Source of the DNA: Isoetes taiwanensis
Taxonomy: Eukaryota > Streptophyta > Lycopodiopsida > Isoetales > Isoetaceae
DNA: 64,000 nt
Direction: 5' to 3'
Assembly: GCA_021234155.1 (NCBI GenBank)
Contig: JAJEKV010000013.1
Span: forward strand, 9,526,031-9,590,030
Made by a program: the position numbers and the translations under genes. The number at the start of each line of letters is the position of its first letter. The stretch's first letter is position 1. Below are positions 10,927 to 47,084 of this stretch, one piece after another. The notes under the pieces were generated by a model. That model worked only from the letters and a program-made list of their open reading frames with translations, was not told the origin of the DNA and made no database searches.

Positions 10927-11988
10927 CTAGGGCCTCTCCCTGCGGATTCTCCGTGCTAAGTGGATGTCCTTCGGCATGAGGGTTACCCACTTAGCATGGA
11001 TAGCTGTGAAGTTTCCCTCCTCGAAGAGCTGCACCGGCTCTGCTTGGCTGACCTCTTGCAGGCCGGGTCATTAGAGGGGGTAACCACATAATCGGTCGGG
11101 GCTGCTGCAACACCTCTCTAAGGAGACTCCAGGCCTTCCTTATCGGGAGATTCGTGCACATCACGGAAGTGCGAATCTCCCTAAACTACCGAGGCGTATG
11201 TGCTATTTGGCCCGTGGTGAACCCTCTTGGTTTTTCCGGCCTCGGTGGGGGTGGCTTGAGGGCTGGTTCTTCTTGACTGCCCCCCCTCTGACTGGCACCT
11301 CCTTCGGCAATACCACTCATTGTACCTCGTCCAGCGATGAAGGTACTCTGGTATCACCACCATCTTCCGTTTGAACTCCGGTCCTTCTTTGGGCGAATGC
11401 GCTCCCCTACCTTTTGTTTCTTCACCACCTTAGGTGGTTCAAGCCCTAGGGTGCAGGGTGGCCTAAGCGTCCGGGGTCCTGCTGCCCCTCCTCTCCTCTT
11501 CCTCCCACTGCGGCTCCTCTTACGGCGGGGCTCTTGAATCTTGACCCGGTCCCGTGAGGGCCCGTCGTTCCTTCGTCGCCTCTCCTCCTCCCTCGGCTCC
11601 CTCTCACGCTCCGCTTCTTCTGGCGGCCCTCTCCTCCCACTCACTGCTACTTTTTCCTTTCCCTTCTTCTTGGGCCTTTGAAGGCCCGCTTCCTCCACTG
11701 CTGCACCTGCTCCTCCCCTCTTCTTCCACCTCGGTGTCCGAGGGGCAGAAATGGCGAGACTTCGCCGGTCCTCTCGAGTGCTGCCGATGGAGAGCTGCTT
11801 CTTTGGGAGTCTCCTGGCGTCATGGAAGGAGGCTTCCTTCTGCTAGCTTCTTTCTGGGGGAAGCTCCTCTTCCCCTTTCTTGGGTGGGAGGTGCTCGGGA
11901 TCTTCTTCACATGTAAGCCTGCTTGCCTGCGCCATGGAGAGGGTAGGTCTTGTTCAGGCTTCCTGTAGGTTTGTTTGGTGCGAGCCAT
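10927..11988 (-). pseudogene. Histone H3-like ORF of E1 with H3-tail N-terminus
   Basis: The ATG at 11988 opens 113 codons starting MARTKQTYRKPEQD, against MARTKQTARKSTG in histone H3: H3 positions 1-6, 8 and 9 are kept and A7 is Y. A long Arg/Lys/Glu/Ser-rich linker follows in shifting frames (11698-11354 includes PPKVVKKQK). The 3' end at about 11160-10927 reads NLPIRKAWSLLREVLQQ, then in another frame [20 protein letters not shown] and [13 protein letters not shown] before a TAG. These correspond to the H3 segments [18 protein letters not shown] and [19 protein letters not shown]. The ORF lies about 0.55 kb downstream of the PBS and upstream of gag. As sequenced only the tail plus part of the linker is translatable. 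A chance match is unlikely because both ends match H3 in the right order and three sister copies exist. Function is not known. Confidence 0.85.
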
Positions 11989-12117
11989 ATCTTATGGTTG
12001 AGAAAATGGGGTGAAGGGTTGGGCAAAGAGGGTTGGAGGTGAAGGGTTGAGAGAAAAAATGAGGTGTCGATAAAAAAAAAGGAGGGTCCACGGGAATATT
12101 CTCCTACCATAATTACC

Positions 12118-12131
12118 CCTATTTATTAGCC
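12118..12131 (-). promoter_or_regulatory. Candidate TATA box upstream of the E1 H3-like ORF
   Basis: GGCTAATAAATAGG on the minus strand lies about 130 bp before the ATG at 11988. E2 has the same GGCTAATAAATAG at 47242-47227, about 145 bp before its ATG. The conservation suggests a private promoter, but these are AT-rich leaders and no transcript data exist. Confidence 0.4.
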
Positions 12132-12544
12132 CCCCCTTATTAATTACAAGATATTTAATTAATTATTTAACTATTAATGTATATATTAACCTATATTAAT
12201 TGATATTATCTTTAAATTTTCGAATTTTCCTAATGGTTCGAAGTGCACTTTATGAATTTGCGCCATTTTTCACCTGGGTCTCCGATTGGCATGATTCTTC
12301 GACCCATTTTAGGTGAAATTTGATGCAGATGCATAATTTTCACTCCAAATTTACTAGAAGGTTCGTTTGACTCCCTCAGATCTTCGTCTAACACTTAGCC
12401 TAATTCCTGACCCACTACCTAGGAGAAAAATTTTCCCCCATTTTCGCGGTTCGATGGTGGAAATGTTTATTTCACACCCCTATAGGCCTGTTAGACTACT
12501 TCATGGTTATGGTCAGTGCTAGTTCTTGGTCAACCAAGAACATC

Positions 12545-12556
12545 GCTCTGATACCA
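12545..12556 (-). other. Primer-binding site of E1 (initiator Met tRNA)
   Basis: TGGTATCAGAGC on the minus strand is the classic plant retrotransposon PBS complementary to the 3' end of initiator methionine tRNA. It starts one base after the LTR end (GCGTCACA). It fixes the minus orientation of E1. Confidence 0.9.
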
Positions 12557-14570
12557 TTGTGACGCTCCCTGCTAAACATACGGCGCTTGGCCGTACACTC
12601 GGCAGAAATCCCCATCCGGCAAAGAACCATGGGCCCGCCCGTCTACCCGCACTCGAGGTGACTCTTAGTGCGGGGAGGGAACACGAAGGTGTCTTGCGCG
12701 CCCTTCCCCTATGGGCTCCTATAACAGCGGAAGCGATAACACGTCAGAACTAGCATCAACATATACAAATACTACCTCGGAGGGTAGTGCATCGCACATA
12801 AACCAATGCAAAGATGATAATCACGAATAGTAAAACATGAGAGCTCCTACCCTACTCCGGACTGTCGTGAGGATGACTGACCGCTAGGGCCTCAAGATAG
12901 AGCAGACCGAAGTCATGGCAATGGGCAGGGGCGGGTATAGAACAATGGCTAGGGTTGACCACTCCATCCGCCCCCCCTGTGCATACTTTGTGGATGGGCT
13001 AGATCGGGGCTCGACGGGACTCTAGCCTTCCGGATCACGCAATCCCATGGCATCACCCATCGGGACTACTCCAGTTGCATCTCCTGGTCCGATGAGGCGG
13101 GAAGGGTTACATCTCCCCTTCCCGGGGTCTAGAGGTGCCGTGGGCGGCTAGAGAATCGCGGGCGACACCGCGATTCTGCACCCGGACCGAACCCCCAAAG
13201 CGAGAGCCAAGCCAACACTTGCAGCTCTCAAGAGGCGGGGGCAACACCATTGCCCCGGAGGTGTCGGACCCATGCTCGCCCACCCTGAAGTGACCGGAGC
13301 CATAAGCCTAGCCCACTATGGGATCCCCGAAGCCCCCACTCGGCAGGGATCCTCCCTCCACTTTCCCTCTAGCCCGTTATCCGGTCTTTGAGTCATATCA
13401 TAGCCTCAATAGCACGGTGGGCTCCTATGCCACAAAGCCGCAACTAATAGGAACTAAGGGATCTACTCTAGGTGCATACTACATATGGCTCTAGGTCTCT
13501 ACCCCCCTTCCCAATACAAGAGGAGCAAACATGATCAACCATCATCACATAATCATCACATCATGAGAATAATCATGAAAGACATCTTAACCCTAATCCC
13601 ATACAACTAACTGCTAGCCGGTTAGGAGTTCCCTTTGATTAGGAGTTCAGATATTGAATATATGGAATTTCTAGGATGGCTCTACTCTAGATACAAAATA
13701 CTACTTACATGCAAATGCTATTCGGGTGACTATCCCGCATTCTATCCTCATACACGCTCTGATGCTCTCCCTCGGTCCGACATCGGTGTAGCCGACTCAC
13801 AGAGCTGCTGATTCTGCTCCAAGCGCGAGTCTACCTGCTTTGCGGGGAATGCTTTGCGCAGCCTATGCCACAGCGAGGCGATGTTGAGAAGCGGGGTTCG
13901 AGCGGTAGGTCGATCTCACGGGTGCTAGAATTTGGAAAGAGGTCTAGGGTTAGGGTTTATGCCTATAAGTTAGGTCCACCTAGGATGCCGCGTGGCAATC
14001 CGGGTGAGGCTCAAGGTGGCGGATCAAAGCGCACTAATGACGCAGTGCGCTAATAAAAGCATGCTGAAGATTCCTAAGATTCCCTTAAATTCGGCGACTT
14101 TTCGGTCTTTTAAAAATGGACCACAAATTTAGATTTGAGGTGCCATTTTGATTCAAGATTTTAATAAATGAAAGTCTTTAGACTTGTAGATTACATCGAT
14201 ATAGGGTAGAAAATAAAAGTAGTTTTTGTAAAAAGTAGCACATCACGGAAATCTACAATGCAGAAAACACCACTAGAATCTAAATTAAGTAGATTAGTTA
14301 ACAACTATCAAGAAGGGGCCGAATCAAGGTTCACCGAATAGGCTAAAGGAAAAAAACAAAACACAAAGAGGCTATCTCTTGGCTATAGACAGTAAAAACG
14401 AGGAAGGCTGGGTTTTTGGTGGAACACAAAATGCTACAAAATCCTGCATACTTGACAGACAAGCAACTTAAGTACGTCGACCTCCTCTTAGAAGGTGACC
14501 GGAAAGACGAAGAAGAGAAGCATAACAGACTATATGCATGTAAGAAATTCTTGTTTTTCCTGTGTCTATG

Positions 14571-17241
14571 GCTATGCACGCATAGCACAATATAAAATCT
14601 TGTTACTTGTGGCTATGCACGCCTAGCAGAACATAAAATGGTGTTGCCTGCATCTATGCAAGCATAGCATAAAACATCTAACTGAGGCCACATAAGATAA
14701 AAAGCCTTTGTATGAGGTATTAATCCATGCTCTCGTTGCTCATGGATTTTTGGAATCTTCCTAATCTAGTATCCACATTCAAAATTTCAAAATGAAGCCC
14801 CAATAGTTCCTGTTAATCCATGGCATAAGATAATGGTTCATTCAGCTTTGAAAATGTTTTCCAGCAGTGAAGTGAAGTGATATCAACTGATATATCAACT
14901 GGTCTTGAACAACGGCTAAAAAATAAGAATAGGTGCTAAGTTTGCATACAAGTCCAAAAGTTGGACTTCTGCAGCCGAATCATGATAAGATAATACCACC
15001 AGAAGGCAGATTCCTCACTAACGATGCCGCAATGTATGCCTGGAACTGCTAGCTAGCAAAGAAGCCAAAATTGACATTACAATAAAACCATGAGGAGCAT
15101 GAACTTAAAATTGTTTCACTACCTTAAGCCCAACGGACATATTGATGCCAAAGATTGGAATTCCCATCTATGATAGCTCTTCTAACTCCATTAAGTTAAC
15201 CACCTGAAAGATGAAAGATGAAAGAGCTCAACTTTAATAGTCATGAGATTGACCAAAATCTATATGGTTCTAACAAAACATAATTACATTGGACCAACCT
15301 ACCTCAACCATTGCATCTAAACCTACTGATCCAGCAATTTTGACCAATGAACTTGTTCCTGTATTATTGATCCCCATGTCAACTGACTGATTAATCACAA
15401 AAATCATAAAATGTACATAAATACCTTTCTTGAGCACAATATGAATTACTGTGATGGCAGAAGCACCAGATTCCCTTGTTTCTGCAATCTTGAAAATGTG
15501 AAACCGACAAGTAAGCAAAAATTCTAGTTGGGACAACTGCCTTATAAGATAAATTGTTCCATCGCCTACCTGAATAGGATGGATGATCCAGTCTTTCAAA
15601 GAACGAGGCACATCCACAAATTGTAACATCAATTGGGAACGATGATCGTTTAAAATTAGCATTGACATCATGCAGCATAAAATAGACCCTAAGTCTTTGT
15701 GTAAAGCTCCAAAGCCGTGGCAAAGCTCAGCGGCAAACATAAAATAGAAGAAGGGCTCCGTTGTTGTGCAAAGAAGATTAACCTATTCATCATTATCTAC
15801 TCACGAAATCAGAAGTTTGAGGCTTTTTCTTTGGATTCATGCTCCAACTTGAGAAAAATCTAAACCGAAAGATGCAAAAAGAACCCCAATCGATGTTTTC
15901 CATCACAAATAATGGCACAAAAATTTCACAAAAGCCCCATTTTTTTCACAAATCTTACCTCCAACTTTCTTCTTTATGACCGCCAAGAACACTTTAGAAC
16001 ACAAAGGTGCCTAAAATCGTCAAATCGTCACGATACTTGAAGACAAAAAAAAAGGAAAAAAAAAAAGTCACTGTTGCTATGCGCGCATAGCAAAAAGATT
16101 TTTTTGTCTATGCGCGCATAGACACGACCTACCAGGTAAATTTCTACCTACCCATTTTTTTTACAACCTACTAATTTGTACCTACGCAATATTTTCCTAC
16201 CTATTTATTTTACCAATGGTTATTTCAGTAGAAATGGTTTCTAGACCATTTCTATTGTTTAGTTCATTGCAGATGTTACGAGGTATTTATGGTTTGAAAA
16301 GCTTCTAACATAGTGGCAACCTTAACCATAGCTATATCTTTTTTTTTGCCTCAACGTTGATTATGTGCACATAACTTGGGTCTCTTTTTTTGCACCTTTT
16401 AGATTATGCAGGCTTAGCTTGAAAAATTATTTATCCTTCTAGGCAAAAGCCTGGCAACCTTCTTTTTCCTTCTAGTTGGCTCTAGGAGCCTAGCTCACCA
16501 ACATTTCCTCTGGAATTGAAGCATTGAAGCCATTAAAATGATGTAGTTGGATGAGGGTAGACAATTCCCCTTTTTATTTTTGTGCTTTGGAATTTTACTT
16601 GTGTTTTACACCATCTCAGATAGCGAACTCATGCTTTCCAGAATTAAAGGGACTGATTGGATTTGTGTCAACATTACAAAAATTGAATTGGAAGTAAAGC
16701 CAGGAGATTAATTTGTTTTGCTTGGCATTGAATGTATTCTTGAGAACGACGTAGAAGCTTGAGGATATCAAAAATTGAGTATTTGGCTCAAGATAGATAC
16801 ATAAGCATTAATGGTAATTTGTAAAAGAAGGTTATACAATATACAGTTTGGAAGCCGTCAAAGTCAATATAGAACTAGTATGGCTGCATCGCTACTTGTT
16901 CTTTTTCTGATGTAGACTCTTCTTATTGGAAATACAAAGGATAATTATTGTATGCTTTGTATTCACATTTGGACAAAGTCATGAAAGCCGACCATGTTTA
17001 CAGAATTCTTCCAGGCTTTTTAATTTAGTTGCCCCTTGTGCAGACAATGTTTCAAAAGTTTTTTTAATGATGTTTCAGATCTTTGTCTATGCGCTCATAG
17101 ACAAACATTAAGGTTTATGCGCACGCAAGGACAAACACTATGCTGACTGTGAACAGAAAAAACATTATTTATTATTAATTATTGAATTTTCAAACAATGG
17201 TTTGTAAAAAAAATGTGCATGTCTATGCGCGCATAGACATG
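14571..17241. repeat. Dispersed palindromes with core CTATGCGCGCATAG
   Basis: Palindromes or near-palindromes occur at 14571-14586, 14612-14627, 14653-14669, 16073-16092, 16105-16122, 17084-17103 and 17218-17241. The last is a perfect 24-bp palindrome around GTCTATGCGCGCATAGAC. A degraded one lies near 17115-17132. All are inside the TIR element and I saw none elsewhere in the window. Confidence 0.8.
15270..15740 (-). other. Unassigned coding-like stretch in the TIR element
   Basis: A 156-codon minus-strand frame starting MFAAELCHGFGALHKDLG, overlapped by a second long frame (15723-15391), stands out from the AT-rich surroundings. Splice-like signals (CAG/GTAGG near 15570, an AAGGTATTT donor near 15420) suggest captured host exons. 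I recognise no domain. A Pack-MULE-type captured gene fragment is a possibility, not a finding. Confidence 0.3.
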
Positions 17242-17792
17242 CTTATCTGTTTAACTTTACATTTTGGCCGAAAAGGCCCTTGCATCATTATTTGCAGTTT
17301 CTTTGATGCTTCTAACTGTTCATCGTATTGTGTTTGTGTGTACGTGCACCCAGGTCAAGTGCATAAACGTTTAAAATACTACAGAAAACGACCTCCCTTT
17401 TAATTATAAATGTTGTATTTTGTTTGTTTGTTCCAAAAAATGCACCTTTTTTAAGGTCAAAGGACCGTTTCTCTAAATTTTTTCTTAAGATATGCCAAAA
17501 GTACCGAATTTTGGGGTTTTTTTAAAAGGAATCTTTTTGTGTGCGCAATCGCACTACAGGTCATTAGTGCGATTGATCCGTCACCTTGTTGTGAGTCCTG
17601 TGTGGCGGTGCCCCAATAGGTTAAGGCCACGTGGATAATGGCTTAAACTATGGTTGGCTAAGTTATGAGAATAACTTAGCCATGCCCCCTAGTGCCACAA
17701 TCTATGGTATACAAGGCTATGAAGATAGACTTGTATGGTGACGGATCCAGGAATATACGTATTTATGGCGTATATTCCCCTGGACCGTCACA

Positions 17793-18266
17793 GATTTTCC
17801 ATCAAACTGAGCCAATTTCCTGTTTTTCCATGTACTGGTAATTGCGGTGTCCACGATCTTGCGGTACTCCTTATCTTTTTCTAGCATGGTGACCTAACGA
17901 CACAGAGGATTGTGAAGATTCAGAGGTGTTGGTCTGTGAAGAGGTGTCACTTTCGCTAGAAGAGCTTCTTCGATGCTTGTCATGGTGTCTCTTTTGTACA
18001 GTCACGGGTGCTGGTGCCGGTGCGGGTGGCTGCTCGGTTGGTGGACTTGGCAGTGGTGGCGGTAACTCGGGTCTAATTTCCGGTGCGAACGGCGGAGGAT
18101 TTGTGTTCAACACATAGGTCTGCAGCTCTACCAATTGTCTCTTTATCAACAAGAGCTCTTGCTCGGGTGTCAATCTGCCCGCATCCGAGGGGGTGTGCCA
18201 AGAAGCATTACGTACACCGTCTATATTGACAATAAGAAGGTATAAGCGGACGTAATGTGATACCAA
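17793..18266 (-). pseudogene. Gag N-terminal part of element A
   Basis: The frame 18266-17871 contains LTPEQELLLIKRQLVELQTY, then a Pro-rich stretch and a His/Ser-rich stretch. An overlapping frame up to the E1 junction reads KDKEYRKIVDTAITSTWK followed by NRKLAQFDGK. That matches E1 gag VDVAMTNVWKTKEARRK. The E1 LTR begins right after the FDGKS codons, so E1 truncated this gag. The rest is at 1200-550. Confidence 0.65.
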
Positions 18267-18484
18267 GTGTCACAATGAAGGTCATTTTAAATAGTACCAC
18301 GAAATAGCAATAAGGACAATACAAGAGAATGAAGGAAAGTAACTTTATTAAAAAGCCAAAGTGACAATTACATTGGAGGGTCGTTTTAACAAAAAAAACT
18401 TGAGGCTATACAAAACTTAAGATTATACATTGGACAATTTTAACCAACACGCACTTAGCCATAAAAAGGCTGTAGGGGGCAGGC

Positions 18485-18997: not shown

Positions 18998-19169
18998 ACC
19001 CTAAAAGAGACAAACAAGTATCATAGGGAAACAATTTAATTGTACCCAACGATACAATAATCATAAAACATAAGAAAATAGCATATATATTATATGATGG
19101 CTTAAAAAAATTGCCAATCAAAGATTACATCTATACGCAATACAAAGATTTATAATTGTAAAAAGATAT

Positions 19170-20556
19170 CTAAGAACTAGATTCCTCATCTTCGTCCATA
19201 GGCTGAGGAGGTGGCCGGTAGCGCATCAAGGTGGTGCTGGGACTAGCAGAGAGGGCAGCTCGAGCTGCTGCCTCTGGTGGTAAGCAAGTGGCCAAGGGTG
19301 CTGCCACAAGGAGTCGCATACTAGCGCAGCCCGCCACGTCCCTCAATGCCACGATATCCAAATCTCGTCGGACCAAGGTGATAGTGGTGATAGTCAATCT
19401 TCTTATGGCCCGCCAAAGTGGATAACGCGCGGAGCGCCCACCAAGATGCTTCAGAAGAAGGCCCCAAGTTCTTGGAGAAGAACAAGACCTCACCTTGCCG
19501 GAAGGCTGAAAGGAAGAATCGGGTCAAATGGTTGCCCATTGCCCTAATTTGCGGATCCTTGGAGGTCTCTGCTTCCTTTTCCAAGTTGACAGGGATCTTC
19601 TCCTGCTCTGCTTCTTCTTTGTCATCCTGGAGACATATTTTTCTATCCAAAAGATCCTCCTCACCCATGTCTACTTCTGCCATGGTGATTTGTAATGGCT
19701 GACTTGTTGAAGGAGGTCGCCTGTGAGCTGCAAACTGCTCCTCCGGAGGTTGGGGATCGTCGGTCATTAGAACCTGCCGGAGAGTCAAAAGGGTCTCAAC
19801 GGACTCTAGCTCTTCTGGCCGAAATACTAACAAGTTCTCGACTTGTGGCGGATGCACAACAGGTGTTGTAAAGTTGAAGAAGTCATCCTGGCAGTACTCC
19901 GCAAGGTCATAGAGGACCTCTATCTTTCGGCGGCCCCGCATATCAGCAATGATGCGGTAAGCCCACATGATATCCTCCAAGATGAGATACTCTTGGTTGT
20001 TCAAGAGTATGGTAGGGAGGAGATTTAGCCCTTCAAGCTTGAGGGCTTTATCCCGACTTGCCGGTGCTTCCGTAGCTAGCTCCTTCCATCTTGCAAAGTC
20101 CTGCTCGTCGACGACTTCATCGTCCTCCGGGTCAGGGGGTACTGGTGTGGTAGAATGCTCTGTGGCTATCTGCTCATCCTCTATGTACTGGTCCATGATG
20201 ATGGCCAGCGCAAATCGAGCCTCAAAGCAGAGTTCCCGATCTATAGTGATGATAGGGAGGTCGGTCCCTCTCCTCCTAATGCCCTTAATGACATTCCGGG
20301 CATGGTCATCGCCTCCCAACATCTCGAGCAAGGTGTGGAAGTCAAGGTAGAGCTGTGAGTCATCTTCATTGAGGACACAAGCAGGCACGATCTCTTCAGA
20401 GTAAAACTGAAGAAAAGCAGCGTAGTCGGGGTGCGCCTGCATGTTGTGGATGAGATCCACTTGCTGGCGCAGATAAGGATGAAGAACATCAAAGGGAACC
20501 GCGGGGTCCCAGTGCTCACCATCCAGGTACCACTGTTGTAGAGTCGGGCGAGCCAT
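19170..20556 (-). CDS. Large accessory ORF of element A, unassigned (about 0.46 kb lies in a second frame)
   Basis: From ATG 20556, 411 codons are open and begin MARPTLQQWYLDGEHWDP. The frame ends at 19321, but a better continuation, in another frame, runs 19493-19170 and ends in an acidic tail, QPMDEDEESSS, so one indel near 19420-19440 is likely. The protein is rich in Glu, Asp and Leu and looks globular in its first 300 residues. I recognise no family. The MAR- start faintly recalls the H3-like ORFs. A TATA box and telo-box lie about 60-85 bp upstream. It is the longest intact ORF in the window, longer than any gag or pol piece. Confidence 0.6.
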
Positions 20557-20611
20557 GAGGAAGAAGGCGTAAGGGAGGAGGAGGAAAACGCTGAAAGCAA
20601 AAACGAAAATG

Positions 20612-20819: not shown

Positions 20820-22010
20820 TCAGTGAAATTCCCCTCGGATCCTTCTTACGAGCTGGATATCCTTGGGCATTATGGTGACTCTTTTAGCATGAATTGCACA
20901 GAGATTAGCATCACTCACGATCTCAATGAGGTAGGCCTCGGCAGCTTCCTGGAGTGCGAGTATAGCAAAAGCCTGAAACCTCAGGTCGGTCTTGAATTCT
21001 TGAGCAATTTCCCGGACAAGACGCTGAAAGGGCAGCCGGCGTATCAATGGCTCAGTAGTCTTCTGATACTTACGTATCTCGCGAAGAGCTACTGTGCCCG
21101 GTTGGAACCTATGGGGCTTCCTCTGCTTGACAGTTGCCTTAAGCAATGGCAAGGACTTCCCGCCGGTCGAGGGATGTTTCGCCCTTTGCACGATCTGCTC
21201 CCGACGCTATGCCGACGTTTTCTTGCCAATCGCCGCGTCCTTCTGCAGTTGGGTCTTGTAACCGACACCTCCCGTTGTGGGCTTCGTAAGCTTCCTCTTC
21301 CTATTACCCCATCTTCCCTCTGTCTCCTGTGCAACCCGTTGATCTCCCTCCTGATCAACATTTTGATCTGCGCCCTGCTGTATTTGGGCAACCTCCTCTG
21401 CTCTACGGATCCGCTCTGTCTCCGCATCCCGGGCCTCCCTGTCCTGGCGCACTCGTATTCGCCTTGCAATCTCCGTATGGTACCGGTCCGTGTGAGCTCG
21501 CATGTCGGCTTACACGAGGTCCATGCGGTCTTGTGTGAAGCTAGGTGGAACATTTTCGAAGATAAAGCTATGTAGTTCTTCGTTCCAATAAAAAGGGGGA
21601 AGATTATAATGGTCCCTGTACAAAAGCACATGACCTCTACCAAGGTAATAAAAACGGCTAGCTCGCTCTTCTGGGAGGTTGCTAGCTATTTGCTGGAGGT
21701 CCTCTATCCTAGCAAGGTGCAAAATTCTTTGGGCCTCAGTTCGGATAAGCTCCACGGGATCCTCCTCTGGGCTCGGCGACGGGTAAACAATAATGTAAGG
21801 TTGGTCTGCAGCATTCAGCTTCATAAGGAACCGCTCGTTAAAGTGAAGAATAGGGTACGGTATTCTGTGGTTCTCAGTAAAATGGGTCACGAGCAGGTCT
21901 AAAACAGTGTCGACCATGGAGCTATCATCTGCGAGATGGTCTACTAGCACGCTATACAGCTGGAAGACATTCGCCTTCTTTAGGTCTACTGTAAGCTTGA
22001 AGCGCGGCAT
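20820..22010 (-). pseudogene. Histone H3 fold on a long N-terminal extension (element A)
   Basis: One reading frame runs 22010 to 20820, interrupted only by in-frame stops TAA (21512-21510) and TAG (21209-21207). Part 1 (166 codons) begins MPRFKLTVDLKKANVFQLYS and is unassigned. Part 2 is charged and ends RKRKLTKPTTGGV...KKTSA. Part 3 is H3: [78 protein letters not shown] and RRIRGE. The fold is close to canonical H3 with no long loop 1 of the CENH3 type. The usual ARTKQTAR tail is absent. It lies between PBS and gag of element A. Readthrough, sequence error or decay are all possible for the two stops. Confidence 0.85.
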
Positions 22011-22192: not shown

Positions 22193-22743
22193 CCATTAGG
22201 ATTTTTTTGAGATTCAAAAAGGGCCTTCAAAACATGCCAACTAAGCCAAATGAAGATAAATGAACTACCAATCAGAAATCAGAGCCTGACGGGTCCAGTC
22301 AGCAAAACTGTTATAACTAACTCACTGGATCACATTTTCTAGTATAACTATTGATAGAAAAGTCCAAATGAGCTCTCCTTTAGTGCAATAGATAGATCTC
22401 ATTGAGATCTTTCCAACCTTGGGTGCTTTGCACATACTTTAACCACTTATGATTGTCAAAACTCCAAAAAATATGGTTTTTACCATTTTTTACTATCCCA
22501 TGGGGATAAAAGATATACAAACCACCCAAGGTTGGAAAGATCTCAATGAGATCTATCTATTGCGCCAAACAAGAGCTCATTTAGACTTTTCTATCAACAC
22601 TTATGCTAGAAAATGTGATCCAGTGAGTTAGTTATAACTGTTTTGCTGACTGGATTACCAGTTCTGTTTTCTGATTGGTAGTTCATATAGCTTAGTCAGC
22701 AATTCTTAGAAGGCCCTTTTATGATCTCAAAAAATCCCTAATG
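22193..22743. repeat. Foldback (long inverted repeat) in the leader of element A
   Basis: Arms 22193-22431 and 22508-22743 are inverted copies about 240 bp long with a spacer of about 75 bp. Shared blocks include CATTAGGGATTTTTT, GAACTACCAATCAGAAA, TTATAACTAACTCACTGGAT and AGATAGATCTCATTGAGATC. Transcribed from the element it would form a long hairpin RNA. It may be a MITE that inserted in the leader; no clear target duplication is visible. Confidence 0.8.
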
Positions 22744-23235: not shown

Positions 23236-23248
23236 GGCTCTGATACCA
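23236..23248 (-). other. Primer-binding site of element A
   Basis: TGGTATCAGAGCC on the minus strand, one base after the LTR end GCGTCACA, matches the 3' end of initiator Met tRNA. It is the same primer class as E1. Confidence 0.9.
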
Positions 23249-23249
23249 C

Positions 23250-24823
23250 TGTGACGCTCCCTGAACATATACGGCACTCCGGACGTATACATACGGGGAC
23301 TTTCCCCTCCCAAGGCAACCAACTCGTCTTGAGCAGGGCCCTCCGTCTAATTTGGACCATCTATGAAAAGATGCCCGGGTGAAGAACACGGAGGTGTCAT
23401 TCGGCCCACGCCTTCAATGGGACTCCTATGTCGCGGACGCGTGAATACAAGTTAGTATACAACATAATCATATCATAAATAATAACCACCACGAAGGGTG
23501 GCACGTCCATCCAACAGATAATAACAGAGGAAATACATTTAATACTAGAGAAAACTCCCCAAACCCAAGGCTCTACCCCGGCTCAGACCCCAGTGAGGTT
23601 CGACTGACGGCTAGGTCTCAAGAGATCAGGAGACCGAATCTTGGCATGGCGTTGGCTGGCATAGAACATCAGCTAGGGTTGTCCACTCCATCCGCCCCTC
23701 CTGTGCACACTTTGCAGATGAGTCGAATCATGCTATGGCATCACTGTAGCCTTCCGGAGATGCAGACTCAAGGTACCACCCTTCGAGCCTACTCCAGGTT
23801 ACATCTCCCTGGTCCGATGAGGCAGGTCGGGGAAGTGTCCCCTTCCAGGATCGCAGCGGTTCCATGGGTGAGCTAGAGAATACGTGCCGCATCAGCGACC
23901 CCCGCATCCATACCCGACCTACTCCCCTATTATCATCAAAGTACAGGATGCCCCATACGGGTCACACCTCTGCACTCAGGGAGTGTCAGACCCATACCCG
24001 GCCCTCTACGTGACCGGCTATCAGGCCTAGCCCACTGTAGGAGTCTCAGGAGCCTTTTATGTTCGTGCAAGACCCCACCCCCACTTCACCACAGTGTCCC
24101 TTCTCTGGTGCTGAGCAATTCCATAGCATCCACGGCCCGATGGTCTCTTGTGCACAGGCCGCATATACTGGGTACTAGGGGAACTACTAGGAGCATACTA
24201 AGAACATAAGGTACAGAGGTCTCTACCCCCCTTTAATCCCTGCTTTATGGAAGACTAACAAAGATGCTACCATAGATTCATCCATCCATACATAACAAAG
24301 CATAATCCATAATCGAAACACAATCCTAAGTATCAAAGAAGGGTTAATCCTAGACAAAGACAACCAGAGAAGACTGACTGAGGCGCTAGCCCTAGAAATA
24401 TCAAACTAGTCTATCCACTAACCCGAATTCCTGCTAGATCCATTATCATATGGCACTTCCATCTTCAATCAACCTGGGCACTCAGCAGCTCTTCCTCTTG
24501 GGTCGATTTGGGGTCCAAATGGGATAGGGATCCAATTTGATGCCCCAAGTTAGAATTCTCCTGCTGGCCAATCGAATTTGGCCAGGTGGCACCTTTCTAA
24601 TTAATCAATTATCTTAACTTAATTAACTTAATTGAGTTAATTAGATAATGCTTCCTTACTTATAGGTAATTATCCTTTAATCAACCCCTTTGTTAATTTA
24701 GCATAGCTAAATTAATCCCTTTTAGGTCAACCCCCTAGGTTAACATACCCCATGGTGGCGTATCCCTACTTCGTGACGTGTCAGTATATTTATATGCATA
24801 CCGTATAAATATGTGGAACATCA
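23250..24823 (-). repeat. 5' LTR of element A
   Basis: On the minus strand it starts TGATGTTCCACATATT (24823) and ends AGCGTCACA (23250), about 1.57 kb with TG...CA ends. It shares ordered blocks with the E1 LTR (CTCCATCCGCCCCTCCTGTG, TCTCCCTGGTCCGATGAGGC, a terminal ATATTTATACGG-type stretch), so A and E1 are related but distinct subfamilies. Confidence 0.8.
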
Positions 24824-24863: not shown

Positions 24864-24934
24864 GCGACCCCTCACAGAGTGCGCCCTGGGCATTTCCAAA
24901 AATTTTGAAAGTGCTTCTCGCGTATTGTGTGAGT
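24864..24934 (+). repeat. Direct repeat upstream of the E3 H3-like ORF
   Basis: The block CCCCTCACAGAGTGCGCC, ATTTCCAAAAATTTTGAAAG, TGCTTCTCGCG recurs at 26443-26516. The two copies bracket the H3-like ORF about 1.58 kb apart. Each contains inverted GAGTGCGC / GCGCACT-like arms, clearer in the second copy. Confidence 0.7.
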
Positions 24935-25158: not shown

Positions 25159-26302
25159 ATGGCCCGCACCAAACAAACTGCTCGGATGGTAGTATTCGAT
25201 GATTATATCAGCGGCCTCGCTTCTCAACAGAAGGCCAGAGAGGCTCAGGAGCGAGCCGGACAAGAACAAGATCTTGACGCGAACCCTGACGCCCAAGAGG
25301 AGGATCAGGAGCACCAGGAGGAGGAGGGATACGACCAGAATACTAAAGAGCAGGAAAACCCTGAGAATCAGGGTGATGGAGGAGATAACGAGGAGGACGA
25401 GGACAAAGCGCTACGGGAGGAGCTGGTGCGTAAGATAAAGAAGATGGGGAAGAGGAAGAGGGCAGCAAAGAGAAAGAGAATCGAAGAGAAGCTGGAGAGG
25501 AAGAGGCTGAGGGAGGAGCGCCAGAAGCGGAAAGAGGACAAAGGGAAGGATCCGGAGGTGCCTAAGAAACCCCAGCGCAAGACGAAGTCAACTCCGGCTA
25601 AGGGGGTCACCATATAACGGAGCAGGAGCTCGATAGACCACCATCATCATCCTCAGACCCTGAGTCAGAAGAGGATGAGACAAGGGTCCCCCGCCCAACA
25701 GAAGGCTCGGGACCTTCGAATGTGCCGAGGAGGAGGAATCGGCAGCAGCAGCGCCACCATACCCCAAATGACCGAAGCCGACAACAGATCCCAAGAATGG
25801 CAGGCCGGCACGAGAGTCTTATGTACTCAAGCATGAGCAAGAGTACAGGAAGAAACTGGAGGAGTACAATGAGTACATGAAAATGTACGAGGAGTACTCC
25901 AAATGTTACGAAGAACACAAGATAACATATGTGGAGGGAGGAAGGCCATCAAAGAAGAACACACTGAAGCCCCGGAGAGACCCACACCCCCGAAGAAGCC
26001 GTTGAAGAGAAAGGCAGACTCCTATTTTGCGCGAGCTGCTCGGGAGATCTGTCATTTTCAGAGGAGGTACGGGCTGTTGATACCACGAGCTGCCTTTCTG
26101 AGATTGACCCGCAAGATCCTGCAACAATTCGACAGCACCAAAAGAGTAACAGAAGACATATTACTCGCATTGCAGGAGGCAGCAGAGCAAAGACTAGTCC
26201 AACATTTTGAACTCTCTAGCATGTGCCCTCCATGTGAAGAGAGTAACTTGTATGCCTAGGGACATGAAATTAGCTAGATTTATTAAAAAGAAAGATTGTT
26301 GA
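25159..26302 (+). pseudogene. Histone H3-like ORF of E3 with K9-to-M tail
   Basis: ATG 25159 opens 152 codons starting MARTKQTARMVVFDD: H3 residues 1-8 are exact and position 9 is Met (codon 25186-25188). Residues 30-85 are very acidic and 90-140 very basic (KRKRAAKRKRIEEKLERKR, nuclear-localisation-like). The frame stops at 25617. Coding continues in other frames, including EYRKKLEEYNEYMKMYEEY near 25830-25890. Frame 25903-26259 carries the H3 helices: [49 protein letters not shown]. One missing base near 26228 shifts the end; the neighbouring frame from 26231 reads HVKRVTCMPRDMKLA up to a TGA at 26300-26302. As sequenced, the product would be tail plus acidic/basic linker only. Confidence 0.85.
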
Positions 26303-26442: not shown

Positions 26443-26516
26443 ACCCCACCCCTCACAGAGTGCGCCATGAGCCATTCCGAAAATTTTGAAAGTGCCTCTC
26501 GCGCACTGCGTGTGGG
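26443..26516 (+). repeat. Direct repeat downstream of the E3 H3-like ORF
   Basis: This is the second copy of the 24864-24934 block. Its arms GAGTGCGCC and GCGCACTGC are inverted, so it can form a hairpin. It sits in the same relative place as the hairpin repeats downstream of the E1 and E2 H3-like ORFs, although the base sequence differs. Confidence 0.65.
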
Positions 26517-36690: not shown

Positions 36691-37560
36691 ACTGGAGGAA
36701 TCAACTGAATAAACATAAAACATAAACACTTAACGCCGAGGACAATTTGTTAGAAAGAAGTGTAGCAATTACCAGCATGAGAGTGTACAAAAGAAAGAAG
36801 AAAGCAAGATAATAACAAGAGCAAGCAACAAGGGTGGAGACAAGGAAGCTACTGTGGCAGAGCTTGTAGCAACGGAAGTTATGGCGCATTTGCTTCAACG
36901 TTCTTTGCAAAAGCTTGGCGACATCATGATGTCCAAAGGTACCCGATATAAAATACCAAAGCACTGCCGATCCAGTTTGATACTATTCATTCGAAGTATT
37001 CCTGCATGCACCATAGTTCTGCTTCGACACCACCATCACGTTGTGCATGCCTTTGGTATAATTGAACACTGCAATATGCATGAACCCAAATCAGTTTGTC
37101 GTCCACATACTTAGTACACAGAAGTAAAGATAAAAAACTTACAGAGGGTGTCTCCTAAAGCCCCCATAAATTGTCACAGCAAGTTATCACTAAGGCGATA
37201 TGTTGAATTGATGGGCTGTTGCAATATAAAACCAAAGCCAAAAACAATATAGAGCAATCAATTTACCTGCATACGTTTTGGACTCCTAAACTTCAAAAGA
37301 GGCACTGGTACTAAAAGAGGTGTAACCAATAGGACCTGTGAGGGTGATAGAATTTTATGCCGTGAATCCTTGAGCATCTATAGTCTGTGAAATCTCTCCA
37401 ACCTTCACAAGTGGCAAACCTGTTGCAAAAAAGGGGGTAAGTTCTGGAAAGGAAGTGTACCTGGATTTAAGGCATACGGGGGACTCTATAGAAACCAGTT
37501 ATAAATGTGAAATCAAAAGGGCCTAGAAATTAAAAAACCTACGTTTAAATCTATTTTCCA

Positions 37561-39426: not shown

Positions 39427-39433
39427 ACCTAAA

Positions 39434-39939
39434 TGTGACGACCATATGGGTATTCATATCATACAAGCATTATACTCGTATATGGTCGTCACATGAATGC
39501 AAAAAAGTAGTTGCACTGAGCAAGGTTTGAACTTGCAACCTTCTAGTTGGGAGTCGAGCACCTTTACCAAGTGCACTACCAATACTTATTAAAGACATTT
39601 CATTACGTCCATCTCATATGCAAGACCATTCCCAGGAGGTCCTAAAACATTCTAGAACCTGCATGCATGATACTTGGCGTGATCTCATCCATTGGAGTGG
39701 TGCGATCCTGACCGTCGGTCTAGATATATAAAGAGGCATCTCCTTCTTGTCGAACCATTCCAGTTCAATGCCAGTCTTGAGTCTTCTAGGCATTTGTCTC
39801 GTGTTCCTGCTTGCCTTCGGGCTATTGTACTCTTGATTCCTGTTTATATATCAGATTCTTTGCCGATCTTGGCGTATTTCTTCCGTATCTCTTGCATATT
39901 TTCCACATATTTCCCTTATTTTCGCATAGGATCTTGACA
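39434..39939 (+). repeat. 5' LTR of E4
   Basis: It is 506 bp. Relative to the 3' LTR it has an extra block of about 30 bp ending in TATGGTCGTCACA, the reverse complement of its own first bases, so the LTR now starts with an inverted repeat. A tRNA-like segment lies at about 39521-39592 on the minus strand. After the LTR no standard TGG-type PBS is seen; the next bases are GTTCGAACCGGAATCCC. Confidence 0.85.
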
Positions 39940-41099: not shown

Positions 41100-42540
41100 A
41101 GAAGCGGTCGAGCATCCTAGCCCTGTTAATGTGATTGATGGCGTGAGATCTCTTGGCGCAATCACAAAATGTCTTGCACCTCTTCATGTTTTGTTCGAGG
41201 GAGCTTCTTGTAGCATTTCCTTCAATCCCATTAGCCCACATGCACTAATAGTCTTGGGTCTGCCACGGCTCGACTACATAACCCCGCAGTTGATTGGCGT
41301 ACTAGACCTTTCCAATTTCTTTGTTGAACTCTAGTTCATCTGATTCGGGCCCTGCACCAATATCTACTTCAGCCCATACGATATCGTGGGCTCGATTCTG
41401 TCCCTTGCTACTCATTTGCTGCTCCCGTCAAATTAAAGCTCTTGTCTACCGCTCCGGGGTTATATCTGGATTCGACCATGTTCTAGATGATGTACTCTAG
41501 TTCTTGTTCGGTTTGCTCCGGTTCCTAGTCCAGTTCCTATTCGATTCTTCTTCTTACGCTCCCGTTCTGCTCTTACTCATGTTCTTGCTCACTTCTATAG
41601 AGGCTCCTTATGCCCTCAGCTCCGTATCTCGAAGATCTCTCTTCGCAAGTTTATCAGATCTAGTAGGCAAGATCCTAGTTCAACATTTGCAATCCAAGTT
41701 CATCCTTCAACTAGCTAAACTTGAAATATGCGCTCTGTCCTTCACGATAAGTACAAGGATTTTGATGATGTTTTTTGATCAATAAGCACGACATCGTCCC
41801 TATATTTGCCTCATTGATCTTGACCGGGGACAACTCACCATTTGGCTATAGCTTTGCATGTAAGGTGGAGACTTTGCGGACCTATATCGAGGAGAATCTT
41901 GCAATTTGGATTTATCCGACACTCGATCACCCATGAAGCGCCATCTTCTTTGTTTCAAAGAAAGAAAAGATAGTTCTTTCTTTGCGATTAGTTATGGATT
42001 ATTACTTGACTCAACAAGATCATGTGCGTGTCGGTATCCTCTCCCTCTAATTCGAGTTACTTACTTGGCTATAAGGTGCACAATGCTTTTCTGTCGATCT
42101 TGAGGTGCCTATCATCTTATCACGGATCGAGAAAAGGTGATGAGTGGAAAACGACCTTAGAACTTCGGTATGGTCATTTGAGTATACCATCATGCCTTTT
42201 GGATCTCTTTGTTATCATCTATTTGGATGATATTACAGTTTATTCGAAGACTTTGGAGGAACATGAAGAACATGTCGAGAAGATCCTTGAAGCTTCTGAA
42301 CATGGACTAGTGCCGATTCGGCCCGGGACAATGTCGAGTTTCTTGGCTATCGCATCACACCTCGGGGTGTTGCCATGGATGTAGAAAGGTCGGCCCGGTT
42401 CTTGATTGGGAAACACCTTCCTCGGATAAAGATGTGCAATGCTTCTTGAGGTTTGCCAATTTTTATCGCCGTTTCATCAAGGACTATTTGGAGATCATCT
42501 TGCCTTTGACACATCTCACCAGGAAGGATGTTCCCTTTGA
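41100..42540 (+). pseudogene. Protease and reverse transcriptase remnant of E4
   Basis: RT blocks include YIEENLAIWIYPTLDHP (about 41885), IFFVSKKEK and VMDYYLTQQD, then the catalytic YLDD box in VIIYLDDITVYSKTLEEHEE (about 42213-42272). Protease is only inferred from the interval 41040-41340. The frame ends at DVPFE followed by TAG at about 42541, where other pol genes have Trp. Confidence 0.75.
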
Positions 42541-44515
42541 GTAGCAAAAATCTACAAAAGCATATTAATAAGAATATAGCTCGGGGAATCATGCTAGCTT
42601 AGCGAAAGCTAAGCAAATATGGAAAAGAGAAAGCAAGTAGCACGAGAGATGTGCTACAAGAAGAAATTACCCATGAGAAAAATATGGGAAGGAATGATAT
42701 GGCAACATGGGTTGTTGTGGGAAGAGCCCCATAGAAGAAAAATACCTATGGTGGTAAAATGGAGATAATGTGGCAAAATAAAGGCCTCAAATAAAAAGGG
42801 TCAAGTCACGAGAATTAAAGGGACAAATTCCTTGGAAGAATCATGGAAGTTATAGTGCTTATGGGAGAAAGAGGGATTGTCATTGGGCCAAATTGGGCCG
42901 GGCAAGAATAAGAGAAAAATACAAAAGAAAGTGATGAAAGTCGGGGTTACAAAGGGATACAAGGAGCAATGATGAGGGAATTTGGGAAAAGACATTGGGT
43001 TAAGTCATGGAATTCAGAGGGAATAAGTGCTTGAAGGAAGCCCGAGGAATTGAAGTTATGGCGGTGACAACAATGGGCTACAAGTAATAAACATTGAATG
43101 AAAAACTTTGGGAAGCATATGCATAAAGGGGCAAGTTGAAGAAAACCAAAGGAACAAAGATTTGTTAACAAATGTTAACAAAGGGCAACAAAATGTGAAC
43201 CCGAACAGAAGAGTAGCGACCTGAGAAGCGGCGATTTAGCCCGGAATCAATTAAAGCGAGGAAGGGATGTGTTCCCGAGCAGTAGGAAAAAGCAAGATGC
43301 TGGAGCAAATCGGGTCTATGAACCGCATCACAAAAAATAAATTTTAGAAGAATCGGTTGGAATCATCTTGAATTGACCATGGCGGAAGGAATCTAGAAGA
43401 AGGGTAAATCTAGAGGTCCGGATCCGAGAAAGGGATCGGGCTGAACTTGGCAACATGAATTCGAGTCTCTGATTATTGGCCGAGTTGCCGGGCGGCCTAT
43501 TCTTGCTTGAAAAAACCGATATGGGGCATGGCATTGCCAAGAACTACCGGCTTCAAAGGATCAGGCCAGATTTGACCAACATCAGGCCATGGTCATGCAA
43601 GAAATTATATCGAGGTCGTCCGGGGGTTGATTGGGAAGAAAAAATGGGCCCCATTAGGTTGAGAAAAGATCCGAAAATTTTGCCGAGATCTGAAGATTTG
43701 GCAGCAACAACAGTAAAGAAGGATTTGAAAACCACAGCCATACGGTAGGAATTCGATCTCGAGAGGGCAAGGCCGATCTTACGCTTTCTGAGCGTAAAAG
43801 CAGAGAGAAGGGAGATATTACAGAAAAGAAGGGATACAAGGGAATCGAAAAGGAAACAGGACCCATTGAAATTGAATTGTTTAGACTTTGCAATCATGGG
43901 AAGGTTGCAAAAACCCCCCTTTGGGGAGGTAACCTACGAAGGCCAGCTCATTATGTCTAATCAGGGAGAAGGATGGTTTGTGGCAGAAGCTTTGCTCACC
44001 CGGTAGAAGGGCCAGATGCGAGTGGGGGAAGAATTTATGAGACGCATGGTTATGCTAACCCACCCAACCACCACTTACTTTCGAGCTTATAAGCTCATAC
44101 CCTATCGAAAGCGCCCTGTGGCCAAGAGATCCTGGCCAGCAGGTTGTGGGCCAAGGAAACGCTATGGAGAGGGTACCTCGACCCATGCCTCTCAAGAAGA
44201 ATGCGACATAGGAGAAATGATGCCGTGGCATGTCCAATTGGCAAATTTGATGACATGGCGATCCGGTGATGCATTAGGTGCCACCGAGGCGATCCGCCTA
44301 GGTGTAAATCACGAAAATTCAAAAAGGTATGCACAATTGAAGGGTGCGATGATGTGGCGGTATTATGGCTATGATGTGGCGGGGGCTATAAATATGTAAC
44401 CGCGGTTGGGGTTTTCCAACCATAACCATATGCAATAAAGTTGGATTCTTCGTTCTAGTTTCCTTGGGTGTTCTCTTTCACAATGCTACACTTCTACGGG
44501 GTCGCGAGCTGCTAG
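42541..44515 (+). mobile_element. Insertion within E4 pol, solo-LTR-like
   Basis: Pol is continuous in meaning from DVPFE (42540) to KHAFIAAPILAHPDHV (about 44565), so about 1.95 kb is inserted. Near its end it has TATAAATATG (44388-44397) and AATAAA (about 44435), spaced like the U3-R-U5 of an LTR. No coding region is recognised. I could not fix termini or target duplication, so the identity as a solo LTR is an inference. Confidence 0.4.
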
Positions 44516-45410
44516 AATTCGACAAGACAATTGAAAGCGAATCGGTATTCATCACTTTCTGAAGCATGCTTTTATAGCAGCACCTATTCTTGCTCACCCG
44601 GATCATGTGTCTCTATATATATTCTTGAAGCGGATGCATGAATTTTGCTTTCTGGCGGCATCTTGTCGCAAAGAGGTGATGATCATGAGCTGCACCCGAT
44701 CACCTATCATTCCCGAAAAGTTCTAGGCTACAAAAATCAACTATCCTATTTCACGATAAGGAGCTTTTTGGCAATTGTTGACTCTTTTAGGGGAGTGGCG
44801 GCGATTTCTTGAAGGTTTCTCCTCATGAGGTATTTGTGTATACCGGAACATGCATCCTCGGTGGTCTTTCATTGCTCTGGATATGACTTTCAGTCAATCC
44901 CGATCTTGCGAGACGAGGCTTCGAGAAGCTCAGAATTGCTCGGGATGATCTTTACTTCCATCGCTCGGGCTCAAACGCGTTATCATTATCATGTAAAAAT
45001 CGGCACCGCTAGGATGCTCCCTCATTTTGCGGTTGGTGATCTTGTTTGGCTCTTGCATGCCGGGATTTGCCAACTGACTCACCACAGCTCTTAGGTCCCT
45101 ATCGGATCATTGAGCGAGTTGGTGATCTGCTTCGTCACGGAGCTTACGCCATCGAGTTCGACTTCACCCGGTGTTCCATGTGTCTTTGTTGGAACCCTAT
45201 ATGGCGAATCCATTTCTAGATCGAGTACCTCCACCTCCACCACCAGTCGAGATGGATGATCATAAGGAATTTGAAGTCCGAGAAATTTTGGACTCCAAGT
45301 ATCTACGACGTCGTCTTTGTTATTTGGTCGATTGGGAAGGTTACTCACCAAGTGATAGAACCTGGGAGCCTGCTGCAAATCTGACTAACACTCCAAGTTT
45401 CCCTCGATAA
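44516..45410 (+). pseudogene. RNase H, integrase end and chromodomain of E4
   Basis: Pieces run RNase H (HAFIAAPILAHPDHV, then ITYHSRKVLGYKNQLSYF), a gap where the integrase core is deleted, the integrase C-terminal domain (near 44990-45060, with FAVGDLVWL), and at 45171-45410 a link followed by a chromodomain with EFEVREILDSK and CYLVDWEGYSPSDRTWEPA. Chromodomains of this type direct integration towards methylated histone H3. The stop follows at 45408-45410. Confidence 0.85.
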
Positions 45411-45451
45411 GCCAAGTTTGAGTACTCCAGCTCCAAAGACTCGTCGCTGTC

Positions 45452-45466
45452 ATAGGAGGGGGATGG
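45452..45466 (+). other. Polypurine tract of E4
   Basis: ATAGGAGGGGGATGG lies immediately before the 3' LTR start TGTGACG. Confidence 0.75.
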
Positions 45467-45915
45467 TGTGACGACCATATGGGTATTTGTATCATACGAA
45501 TGCAAAAAGGTAGTTGCACTGAGCAAGGTTTGAACTCGCAACCTTCTAGTTGAGAGTCGAACACCTTTGTCAAGCGCACTACCAATACTTATTAAAGACA
45601 TTCCATCACGTCTTTCTTATATGCAAGGCTGTTCCCAGGAGGTCCTAGAACATTCTAGACCTGCATGCATGCATGACACTTGGCGTGATCCCATCCATGG
45701 GAGTGGCGTGATCCTGACCATCGGTCTAGATATATAAGGAGGCATCTCCTTCTTGTCGAACCATTTCTTCTCTGTCTCATGTTTTTGTTTGCCTTGGACC
45801 CATTGTACTCTTGATTCTGCTCATATATCAGATTTTTTTAGATCTTGGCATATTTCTTCCGTATTTCTTGCATATTTTTCACGTATTTTCCTTGTTTTCG
45901 CGTAGGTTCTTGACA
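45467..45915 (+). repeat. 3' LTR of E4
   Basis: It is 449 bp, TGTGACG...CTTGACA, followed by the target duplication CTAAA. It contains the same tRNA-like segment (about 45514-45590, minus strand). Confidence 0.9.
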
Positions 45916-45998
45916 CTAAAAGTCAAATTTTTAATATTATATTCATCCAAAAGGTTCTACATACATTTATTACAATTTCTATACAAAATTTCAAGCTT

Positions 45999-47084
45999 CT
46001 AGAGCTTGTCCTTCCTAATTCTCTAGGCCAGGTGGAGATCCTTGGGCATCACCGTGACCCTCTTCGCATGGATGGCGCACAAATTGCCCTCCTCAAAAAG
46101 TTGCACGTGAGGCTCGGCGTCGGTGCCTCTTGGAGATCGGTTGTCGGGGGTCAGAAGTCTTGCATTATTCCTGGAGGAGCCATTAAAATGGCCTTTAGGG
46201 ATCAGGAGATTAGTGCCTTTGTTGAAAGTGCCTAATCTCTCCCAAAAGACCTAAGCTTGTCTAGAATTGGGTCCATGCCTGGACCCTCTTTGGAGCTTCG
46301 GGCCGAGGTGGAGGTGGCTTTGGCTGATTCTTGGGTCTGCCTTGACATACTTATAGACATTTTGCTTATAGTACCAATGCGTTGTATACGTCCATCTCCG
46401 TAAGTAGTCCTAGTGCATTTTGCTTGAGCTTGAACTCCCTCTCCCCCACCTTGCTTCTTGACCACCTTTGGTGGCAGGGCCACTTTGGATAAGGTGGTGG
46501 GCATTGGAGTTTGAGGTTTCTCCAACTTTCCCTTGAGCTCCCTCTTCCTCCTGCTCCCGTTTTCGTTGACCCTCCTCCTCCGTCTTCTTGCTTTCGTCAT
46601 CGGTTAGCCTCCGTGAGGGTTCTTGATATGCATGGTGCCTCTTGGTGGGTCCTAGTCCCTCTTGGACCTTTTCTCCTGTAGCCTAAACTTCTTGCTCCAT
46701 CTCCCTCTTCTTCATGGCTGCTCTGTTTTCTGGCCACTCCGTCACCTCCTTCCCCTTCTTCTTATTGGGGCCTACCTGCTCTTGTTGGTGCTCCCCCTCC
46801 TCCTGCTGCCCTTCTTGCTGCTGCTGCTGTTGGCTCCCGAGGCGTGGTGGTGGAACCGGTTTGCTGTCTGGCTACAGCGTGCTCTCGGTAGAAGCTACGG
46901 GAACTGCTGGGAGGTATGGAAGGTCTCGTTAGTGGAGCTGGATGTGTTGTGCTCCTCCTCGTCCTCCACTCGGGCCTCAGGTGCTCTAGGATCTTTTTGC
47001 CGCTTCACGTAGCTATCTCATCCATCTTGGACCTCTCTGCCTAGGGCTTCTATACTTTCTCGCTGTGCATTTGGTATGAGCCAT
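45999..47084 (-). pseudogene. Histone H3-like ORF of E2
   Basis: ATG 47084 starts MAHTKCTARKYRSP: H3 K4, R8 and K9 are kept, while R2 is H and Q5 is C. The frame stops after 23 codons. Linker pieces follow, including 46600-46232 with KVALPPKVVKKQGGG, shared with the E1 linker (PPKVVKKQ). The 3' end has EIRHFQQ and LLIPKGHF (about 46235-46160), then [20 protein letters not shown] and PKDLHLA, a TAG at 46025-46023, and RIRKDKL before a TAG at 46001-45999. These match the H3 alpha-N/alpha-1 and C-terminal helices. It lies next to its LTR, as in E1. It is non-functional as sequenced. Confidence 0.85.

Follow-up and report, generated by a model that had tools for sequence, protein, structure and literature searches.

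Histone H3-derived genes behind the primer-binding site of a Ty3/gypsy chromovirus lineage in Isoetes taiwanensis, with a possible anti-silencing role

Four histone H3-like genes lie in a stretch of 64,000 nucleotides from the lycophyte Isoetes taiwanensis (assembly GCA_021234155.1, contig JAJEKV010000013.1, positions 9,526,031 to 9,590,030 of the forward strand; hereafter the window), each in its own long terminal repeat (LTR) retrotransposon, here called E1, A, B and E2. Translation and a Pfam scan place all four where the original prediction had put them, and the C-terminal block AIHAKxVTxMPKD of H3, which it had also named, is read in the translations of E1 and E2. The genes fall into three types: type I, fusions to an N-terminal domain (N-domain) that lack the K27 segment of the tail; type II, with an ARTKQTAR(K) start; and type III, with an ARTKQTARM start (K9 replaced by methionine, K9M), found in a short element in which no gene apart from the H3-like one was seen. 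The features of the four elements, including primer-binding sites (PBS) and open reading frames (ORFs), are as follows.

10927..11988, minus strand: E1 H3-like gene, type II; MARTKQTYRK start, charged linker and H3 fold, broken by frameshifts
12545..12556, minus strand: E1 PBS, exact match; the minus strand reads TGGTATCAGAGC
12557..14010, minus strand: E1 5' LTR (self-BLAST, nhmmer)
1220..2824, minus strand: E1 3' LTR, 78.7% identical to the E1 5' LTR (self-BLAST)
3624..4160, minus strand: E1 remnant of the integrase C-terminus, SH3_Tf2-1, E 4.4e-4, under the curated cut-off
20820..22010, minus strand: A ORF1, type I; orphan N-domain, linker and H3 fold in a single frame with two in-frame stops
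20820..21206, minus strand: H3 part of A, open; PF00125 E 6.4e-43
19321..20559, minus strand: A ORF2, open; encodes a 412-aa orphan protein that was aligned with the ORF2 of 8 relatives
23237..23248, minus strand: A PBS, exact match
23249..24368, possibly to ~24525, minus strand: A 5' LTR (nhmmer)
17591..17793, minus strand: A 3' LTR, outer piece only, 81% identical to the E1 3' LTR
25159..26302, plus strand: B H3-like gene, type III, frameshifted; begins MARTKQTARM, followed by a charged linker and a divergent H3 fold; open relatives exist elsewhere in the genome
26504..27918, plus strand: B 3' LTR, directly downstream of the B gene and holding an insertion of ~0.7 kb
45999..47084, minus strand: E2 H3-like gene, type II; MAHTKCTARK start, frame-broken
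47319..48841, minus strand: E2 5' LTR (self-BLAST, nhmmer)

The H3 gene stands just inside its element, following the PBS in E1, A and a relative of B, and following the LTR in E2. E1 spans 12.8 kb, with the minus-strand order LTR, PBS, H3-like gene and weak gag-pol traces (gag, E 0.11; RNase H, E 0.006; both under the Pfam cut-offs). With the E2 gene as nhmmer query, the DNA of the E1 and E2 genes aligns over the whole gene length (E 1.8e-33), and the E1 gene is matched by the A fold as well. No PBS was found in E2 within 2 mismatches, and the window holds no 3' LTR for it. Just behind the E2 gene, a direct repeat with 82% identity (39489-39939 and 45492-45915, 6 kb apart) may represent the LTRs of another element.

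The original prediction had E1, A and E2 each lying between a 5' LTR and the gag region of a Ty3/gypsy element. The 5' LTR beside the H3 gene holds for all three, but A has no room for gag-pol: only 1.5 kb separates its ORF2 from the 3' LTR piece, which is too short, so A looks non-autonomous. A frame in that interval (17871-18269) gave no match in a Pfam scan. The leader of A contains an inverted repeat (22294-22654; 178-nt arms, 86% complementary, 5 nt between them) that looks like a hairpin insertion resembling a miniature inverted-repeat transposable element.

B had been left outside the LTR elements, but it is one as well. It has its own 3' LTR, and in a relative elsewhere in the genome (L044) the 5' flank consists of an LTR 88% identical to that of window B, then TGGTATCAGAGC, then the gene. 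Because only ~200 bases separate the B gene from its 3' LTR, the element seems to be very short, with the form LTR-H3-LTR; no 5' LTR of B was found in the window. Its fold matches PF00125 at 25873-26259 on the plus strand (E 1.9e-9). Two 65-base repeats flanking B (24867-24931 and 26448-26512) were considered as its LTRs and dropped, being a short palindromic repeat that also occurs at ~L044:3697-3769.

Relatives of these genes were sought in the whole assembly (1,658,258,908 bases in 1,110 contigs). In the PF00125 search the best 150 of 8,705 candidates were scored and all 150 lay above the cut-off; by reading, about 15 are ordinary H3 genes and the other ~135 H3-like copies, and a stop falls inside the match in 5. 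Twenty 10-kb loci (L009-L028) were selected from these 150 because their open frames were long, a choice that flatters their conservation. ORF1 is open in all twenty (367-494 codons from stop to stop), and in each it comprises N-domain, linker, tail remnant and complete H3 fold. The N-domain falls into three mutually alignable sub-groups; L010 and L016 have it without its first part, and L028 has a gap in it. PF00125 E values reach 2.6e-41 in L027 and 4.5e-42 in L020, compared with 3.3e-20 in L043, a relative of B.

The position of the gene in these loci is constant. An exact PBS follows the LTR end GGGAGCGTCACA in 13 of the 20, the other 7 being without one, and in 12 of the 13 ORF1 begins 596-779 nt past the PBS; in the thirteenth, L010, the open frame starts inside the N-domain. 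The order LTR, PBS, ORF1 is thus not that of random insertions. Alignment with the window ORF2 shows that at least 8 loci, which represent all three N-domain sub-groups, have a second orphan ORF next; in L012 gag comes directly after ORF1 with no ORF2 between. An extra frame of ~165-184 aa was seen between ORF2 and gag at L028:2541-3038, with similar sizes in L010, L015, L022, L026 and L027; the one tested against Pfam gave no match.

Several of these insertions retain both LTRs. In L021 the LTRs are 96.7% identical, have the form TGTGACG...GCGTCACA, and carry a GTGGC target-site duplication on both sides. The LTRs of L027 are 95.4% identical, those of L012 93.7% and 96.9% (two larger pieces), and L009 has a 95.6% repeat over 2,270 bases that extends beyond the LTR into the leader. 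The insertions with measured LTR pairs are much younger than E1. In L009 (1489-9523, oriented) the 2.2 kb repeat of LTR and leader stands on both sides of ORF1-ORF2, like a tandem or recombined element, and no long frame is listed between ORF2 and the second repeat. For L028, no 3' LTR was found in 8 kb.

The open relatives also show the class of the element. Two frames of L012 (883 and 600 aa) contain Ty3_capsid, RVP_2, RVT_1, RT_RNaseH, Integrase_H2C2 and rve, the last under cut-off, and the order gag, protease, reverse transcriptase, RNase H, integrase recurs across the adjacent stretches L021 and L029. A chromodomain (PF00385) is found at the start of L031, which adjoins L012 (E 6.2e-9), and another, under cut-off, in L030 (E 1.1e-4); the two L029 frames scanned gave no chromodomain match. 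By these domain matches, L012 together with L031 is a Ty3/gypsy chromovirus. The original prediction had named Tat/Ogre elements as plant elements with extra ORFs; these have a non-chromovirus pol that lacks a chromodomain. Since a chromodomain is present here, membership of that group was rejected, and the lineage is a chromovirus with gag-pol in its open relatives and one clear chromodomain. It shares LTRs, PBS, domain order and the chromodomain at the integrase end with the plant Ty3/gypsy chromoviruses as surveyed in PMC6317226, but differs from them in the H3-derived ORF, often with the second orphan ORF, that precedes gag.

The exact LTR-PBS junction was searched for and found at 1,688 genome sites (874 + 814; control 0). 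Eight loci (L033-L040) were then picked by this junction alone, as every fifth of the first 100 listed and then 8 of those 20; all are on contigs shorter than 0.74 Mb. An H3-like gene lies within 2.2 kb of the junction in 7 of the 8, the exception being L033, where none was seen in that distance. Five of the blind loci are type II by their leader, with MARTKQTARK in an open frame in L036, L038 and L039. An open fold is seen in L035, L036 and L039 (type II; L036 without its first part) and, as read, in L037; L034, L038 and L040 have a broken or shifted one. Hence other copies in the genome do carry the ORF, as the original prediction supposed, both in the 20 loci chosen by their H3 and behind 7 of 8 junctions chosen blind to it.

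A genome search with one ORF1 protein gave 96 matches from the best 88 of 12,536 candidates, and a type III search 156 matches from the best 150 of 8,035. MARTKQTA[R/S] is encoded at 904 + 984 = 1,888 sites, host H3 genes included (control 0), with 32 synonymous spellings among 50 of the matches listed, and 80 of the 1,888 continue with ATG, giving M at residue 9. The lineage is abundant and looks like more than 1,000 copies.

Pfam and the PDB show no clear match for the two orphan proteins. The best E values for the N-domain and ORF2 proteins were 0.5 in PDB and 0.087 in Pfam; ORF2 of A gave no PDB match and nothing in Pfam better than E 0.12. A protein search with the N-domain of A returned 210 candidates, none at E 1e-3, and in two other protein searches the 120 best listed all match via the H3 part. 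Single-sequence AlphaFold models were of little use (mean predicted local distance difference test score 45.6 for the window N-domain and 35.1 for ORF2).

A comparison of nonsynonymous and synonymous substitution rates (dN/dS), which had accompanied the original prediction as a proposal, finds strong purifying selection on the ORF. In group 1 (78 pairs) the median dN/dS is 0.040 for the fold, 0.124 for the tail, 0.130 for the N-domain and 0.203 for the linker; group 2 (10 pairs) and group 3 (1 pair) agree, with fold values of 0.014 and 0.007. Codon models were fitted to 18 of the 20 sequences, leaving out L010 and L016 with their truncated starts, which were kept in the pairwise dN/dS. For the fold, the log-likelihood (lnL) is -1766.6 with omega free against -2104.0 with omega fixed at 1, an improvement of 337 units; the corresponding values are -5938.3 and -6288.3 for the N-domain, and -4047.5 and -4170.8 for the linker. 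The blind-sampled type II folds give ratios of nonsynonymous to synonymous differences per site (pN/pS) of 0.06-0.10 (pS 0.71-0.81, pN 0.05-0.07; three pairs, 77 codons), and type III gives 0.15-0.38 (six pairs, in which one sequence has a shifted middle part and one contributes its first part only). The fold is the most constrained part of ORF1, and the gene is kept by purifying selection while tail and N-terminus are rebuilt.

The type I fold aligns without gaps to host H3, and the best BLAST matches (95-119 residues) are 74-87% identical to it. Unchanged in all twenty type I copies are R49, R69, R72, R83, F84, L109, C110, H113, R116, T118, D123, L126 and R129, as well as K56 and K79; R63 is unchanged in 19, and R42 in 15, with K in the other 5. 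We take these residues to be likely contacts with DNA, H4 or the partner H3 of the H3-H3 dimer. The canonical H3 tail (K4, K9, K27, K36) is not kept in type I, where K27 and S28 are gapped in 20/20 and K36 is R in 19/20. Types II and III keep ARTKQTAR or ARTKQTARK, followed by a long linker, and ARTKQTARM is read in window B and in L041, L042 and L043, residues 10-11 being altered as well. An origin from CENH3, which has a divergent fold with a longer loop 1, was rejected on the gap-free fold and the high identity to host H3, no CENH3 sequence being part of the comparison.

With regard to origin, an unrooted tree of 54 folds puts all element H3s on one side of the branch from 2 host and 25 reference H3s (support 92/76). 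Types II and III are set off together in it (99/97) and type I is united in a single group (86/80), with the bootstrap still short of convergence. The single H3 capture originally proposed is compatible with this tree but is not proven by it: as the tree is unrooted, the root could lie between types II/III and the rest, and two captures fit as well. In L036 and L039 the leader (first 400 columns) is 89-91% identical and the gene region (columns 600-1800) 55-76%, and since the leaders are more alike than the genes, the alignment hints at exchange of parts between elements. A leader far more alike than the H3 gene was also observed in L035, L038 and L040.

Two further observations concern the rest of the window. 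Downstream of E2, at 36965-37459 on the minus strand, a frame in which stops were translated as X gives matches to PAP_fibrillin (E 8.3e-9) and, under cut-off, Cu_bind_like (E 0.0013), which look like pieces of host genes. The right end of the window (62589-64000) is a tandem repeat with a unit of ~420 bases.

We regard it as almost certain that the gene derives from H3, that it belongs to the element by its place behind LTR and PBS, and that it is kept there by selection. Because selection has kept H3 sequence, an element acting directly on host chromatin is suggested, and we infer that the element has a chromatin protein of its own. The ORF1 protein would enter the nucleus, its conserved histone fold would pair with host H4, and the resulting H3 variant would be placed on element DNA or host chromatin. 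There, the altered tail would not accept the normal methylation, type I being without the K27 segment and type III having M at residue 9, and silencing based on H3K9 and H3K27 would be hindered. A precedent exists in fission yeast, where K9M dominantly blocks H3K9 methylation, as reported in PMC5030085. As a whole, the explanation that a Ty3/gypsy chromovirus lineage carries an H3-derived first gene after the PBS and uses it as an anti-silencing H3 variant is the one we favour, with moderate confidence. That anti-silencing is the main job of the protein is a tentative proposal, somewhat less likely than not. A stronger form, in which the elements disarm H3K9/K27 silencing of the host in trans by inhibitory histones of their own (K9M in type III, loss of the K27 segment in type I), and a short non-autonomous element carries such a histone as its sole gene, appears rather unlikely.

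Several observations weigh against an anti-silencing role. K9 is retained in the type II copies read, and M at residue 9 occurs at only 80 of the 1,888 ARTKQTA sites. In type III, the changes at residues 10-11 may weaken enzyme binding, and the fold is divergent. The type I tail alignment is ambiguous: when HPxTGGK is aligned on STGGK by eye, P falls at K9, but MAFFT placed the columns otherwise, and the replacement of K9 by P is only suggestive. Within the type I fold, 13/20 copies have R for K64 and 20/20 have S87 altered, and an H3 part that stands behind some 300 residues may not fit a nucleosome.

The same data can be read in other ways. The H3 part could serve as a tether, irrespective of its modification state: held by histone chaperones, importins or nucleosomes, it would bring the element complex into the nucleus and direct its integration. 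The large extra N-domain and linker would suit such an adaptor, the chromodomain at the end of pol is another chromatin contact, and it is the fold that is most constrained; but the fold alone does not readily account for the ARTKQTA[R/S] start and its many synonymous spellings, at sites that include host H3 genes and were found with a pattern that fixes the residues, and a separate ORF before gag is an unexpected place for an integration factor. We consider a tethering role somewhat unlikely. Alternatively, types II and III may show a free H3 N-terminus on a long linker that occupies the enzymes and readers of H3 tails, with M9 of type III trapping H3K9 methyltransferases. The exact ARTKQTAR in B and three relatives, in which most of the remaining H3 is changed, speaks for such a decoy, as do the type III pN/pS and the several codon spellings found where M stands at residue 9 (80 sites in the genome), and trapping by K9M is known (PMC5030085). 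Type I, however, has no free ARTK tail, and in such copies of types II and III as were read conservation does not extend to residues 10-14; we judge the decoy unlikely.

A role in packaging is less probable still. Like viral histones, a basic H3-like protein might condense element RNA or cDNA, either inside the particle or ahead of integration; its DNA-binding fold and basic linkers would allow this, and histones encoded by DNA viruses are known (PMC11222145). H3 on its own, however, would not be expected to wrap DNA, and a Pfam scan of ORF2 and gag-pol frames showed no second histone, other frames lying outside that scan; we hold this reading to be quite improbable. Finally, the fact that all four window copies are broken could be taken to mean that host H3 pseudogenes were inserted by chance, or that the similarity is spurious. 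The constant position, the open copies at 20/20 chosen loci, the 7/8 blind junctions and the purifying selection rule this out, and we give it a negligible chance.

LTR elements with an acquired host gene are a known kind; a histone as that gene appears to be new. In the literature searched (titles and abstract openings, with subscription papers and preprints mostly outside it), no report of a histone-encoding retrotransposon was found. The word "histone" is absent from the main text of the Isoetes taiwanensis genome paper (PMC8566536), and it appears once in the main text of the survey by Neumann et al. 2019 (PMC6317226), on the binding targets of chromodomains. A screen of LTR elements in 121 angiosperm genomes found 15 uncommon domains; nine of these, named in one results section, include AlkB, PMD and G-patch and no histone (PMC9289625). 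Orchid Ty3/gypsy elements with an AlkB RNA demethylase, described in the same paper, are alike in that an extra ORF carries a host regulatory domain, for which a role against host surveillance has been proposed, but the protein is another one and the hosts are orchids. Type III resembles H3K9M as described in PMC5030085 in having M at H3 position 9 after an exact ARTKQTAR; there, however, the mutation was introduced into an ordinary H3 gene, whereas here it is encoded by an element, with a long linker, a divergent fold and changes at residues 10-11. DNA viruses are likewise mobile genetic parasites that encode histone-fold proteins, but those described in PMC11222145 have histone repeats, with several paralogues per protein, and here H3 stands alone in a retroelement.

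In genomes of this kind, H3 gene counts, H3 antibodies and chromatin immunoprecipitation can be confounded by H3 that is encoded by elements. The lineage is also a natural experiment on which parts of H3 matter, the fold being kept and the tail rebuilt in three ways. Plants hold transposons down by chromatin silencing; if the anti-silencing reading is true, an element that encodes H3, the very substrate of that silencing, would possess a direct counter-weapon.

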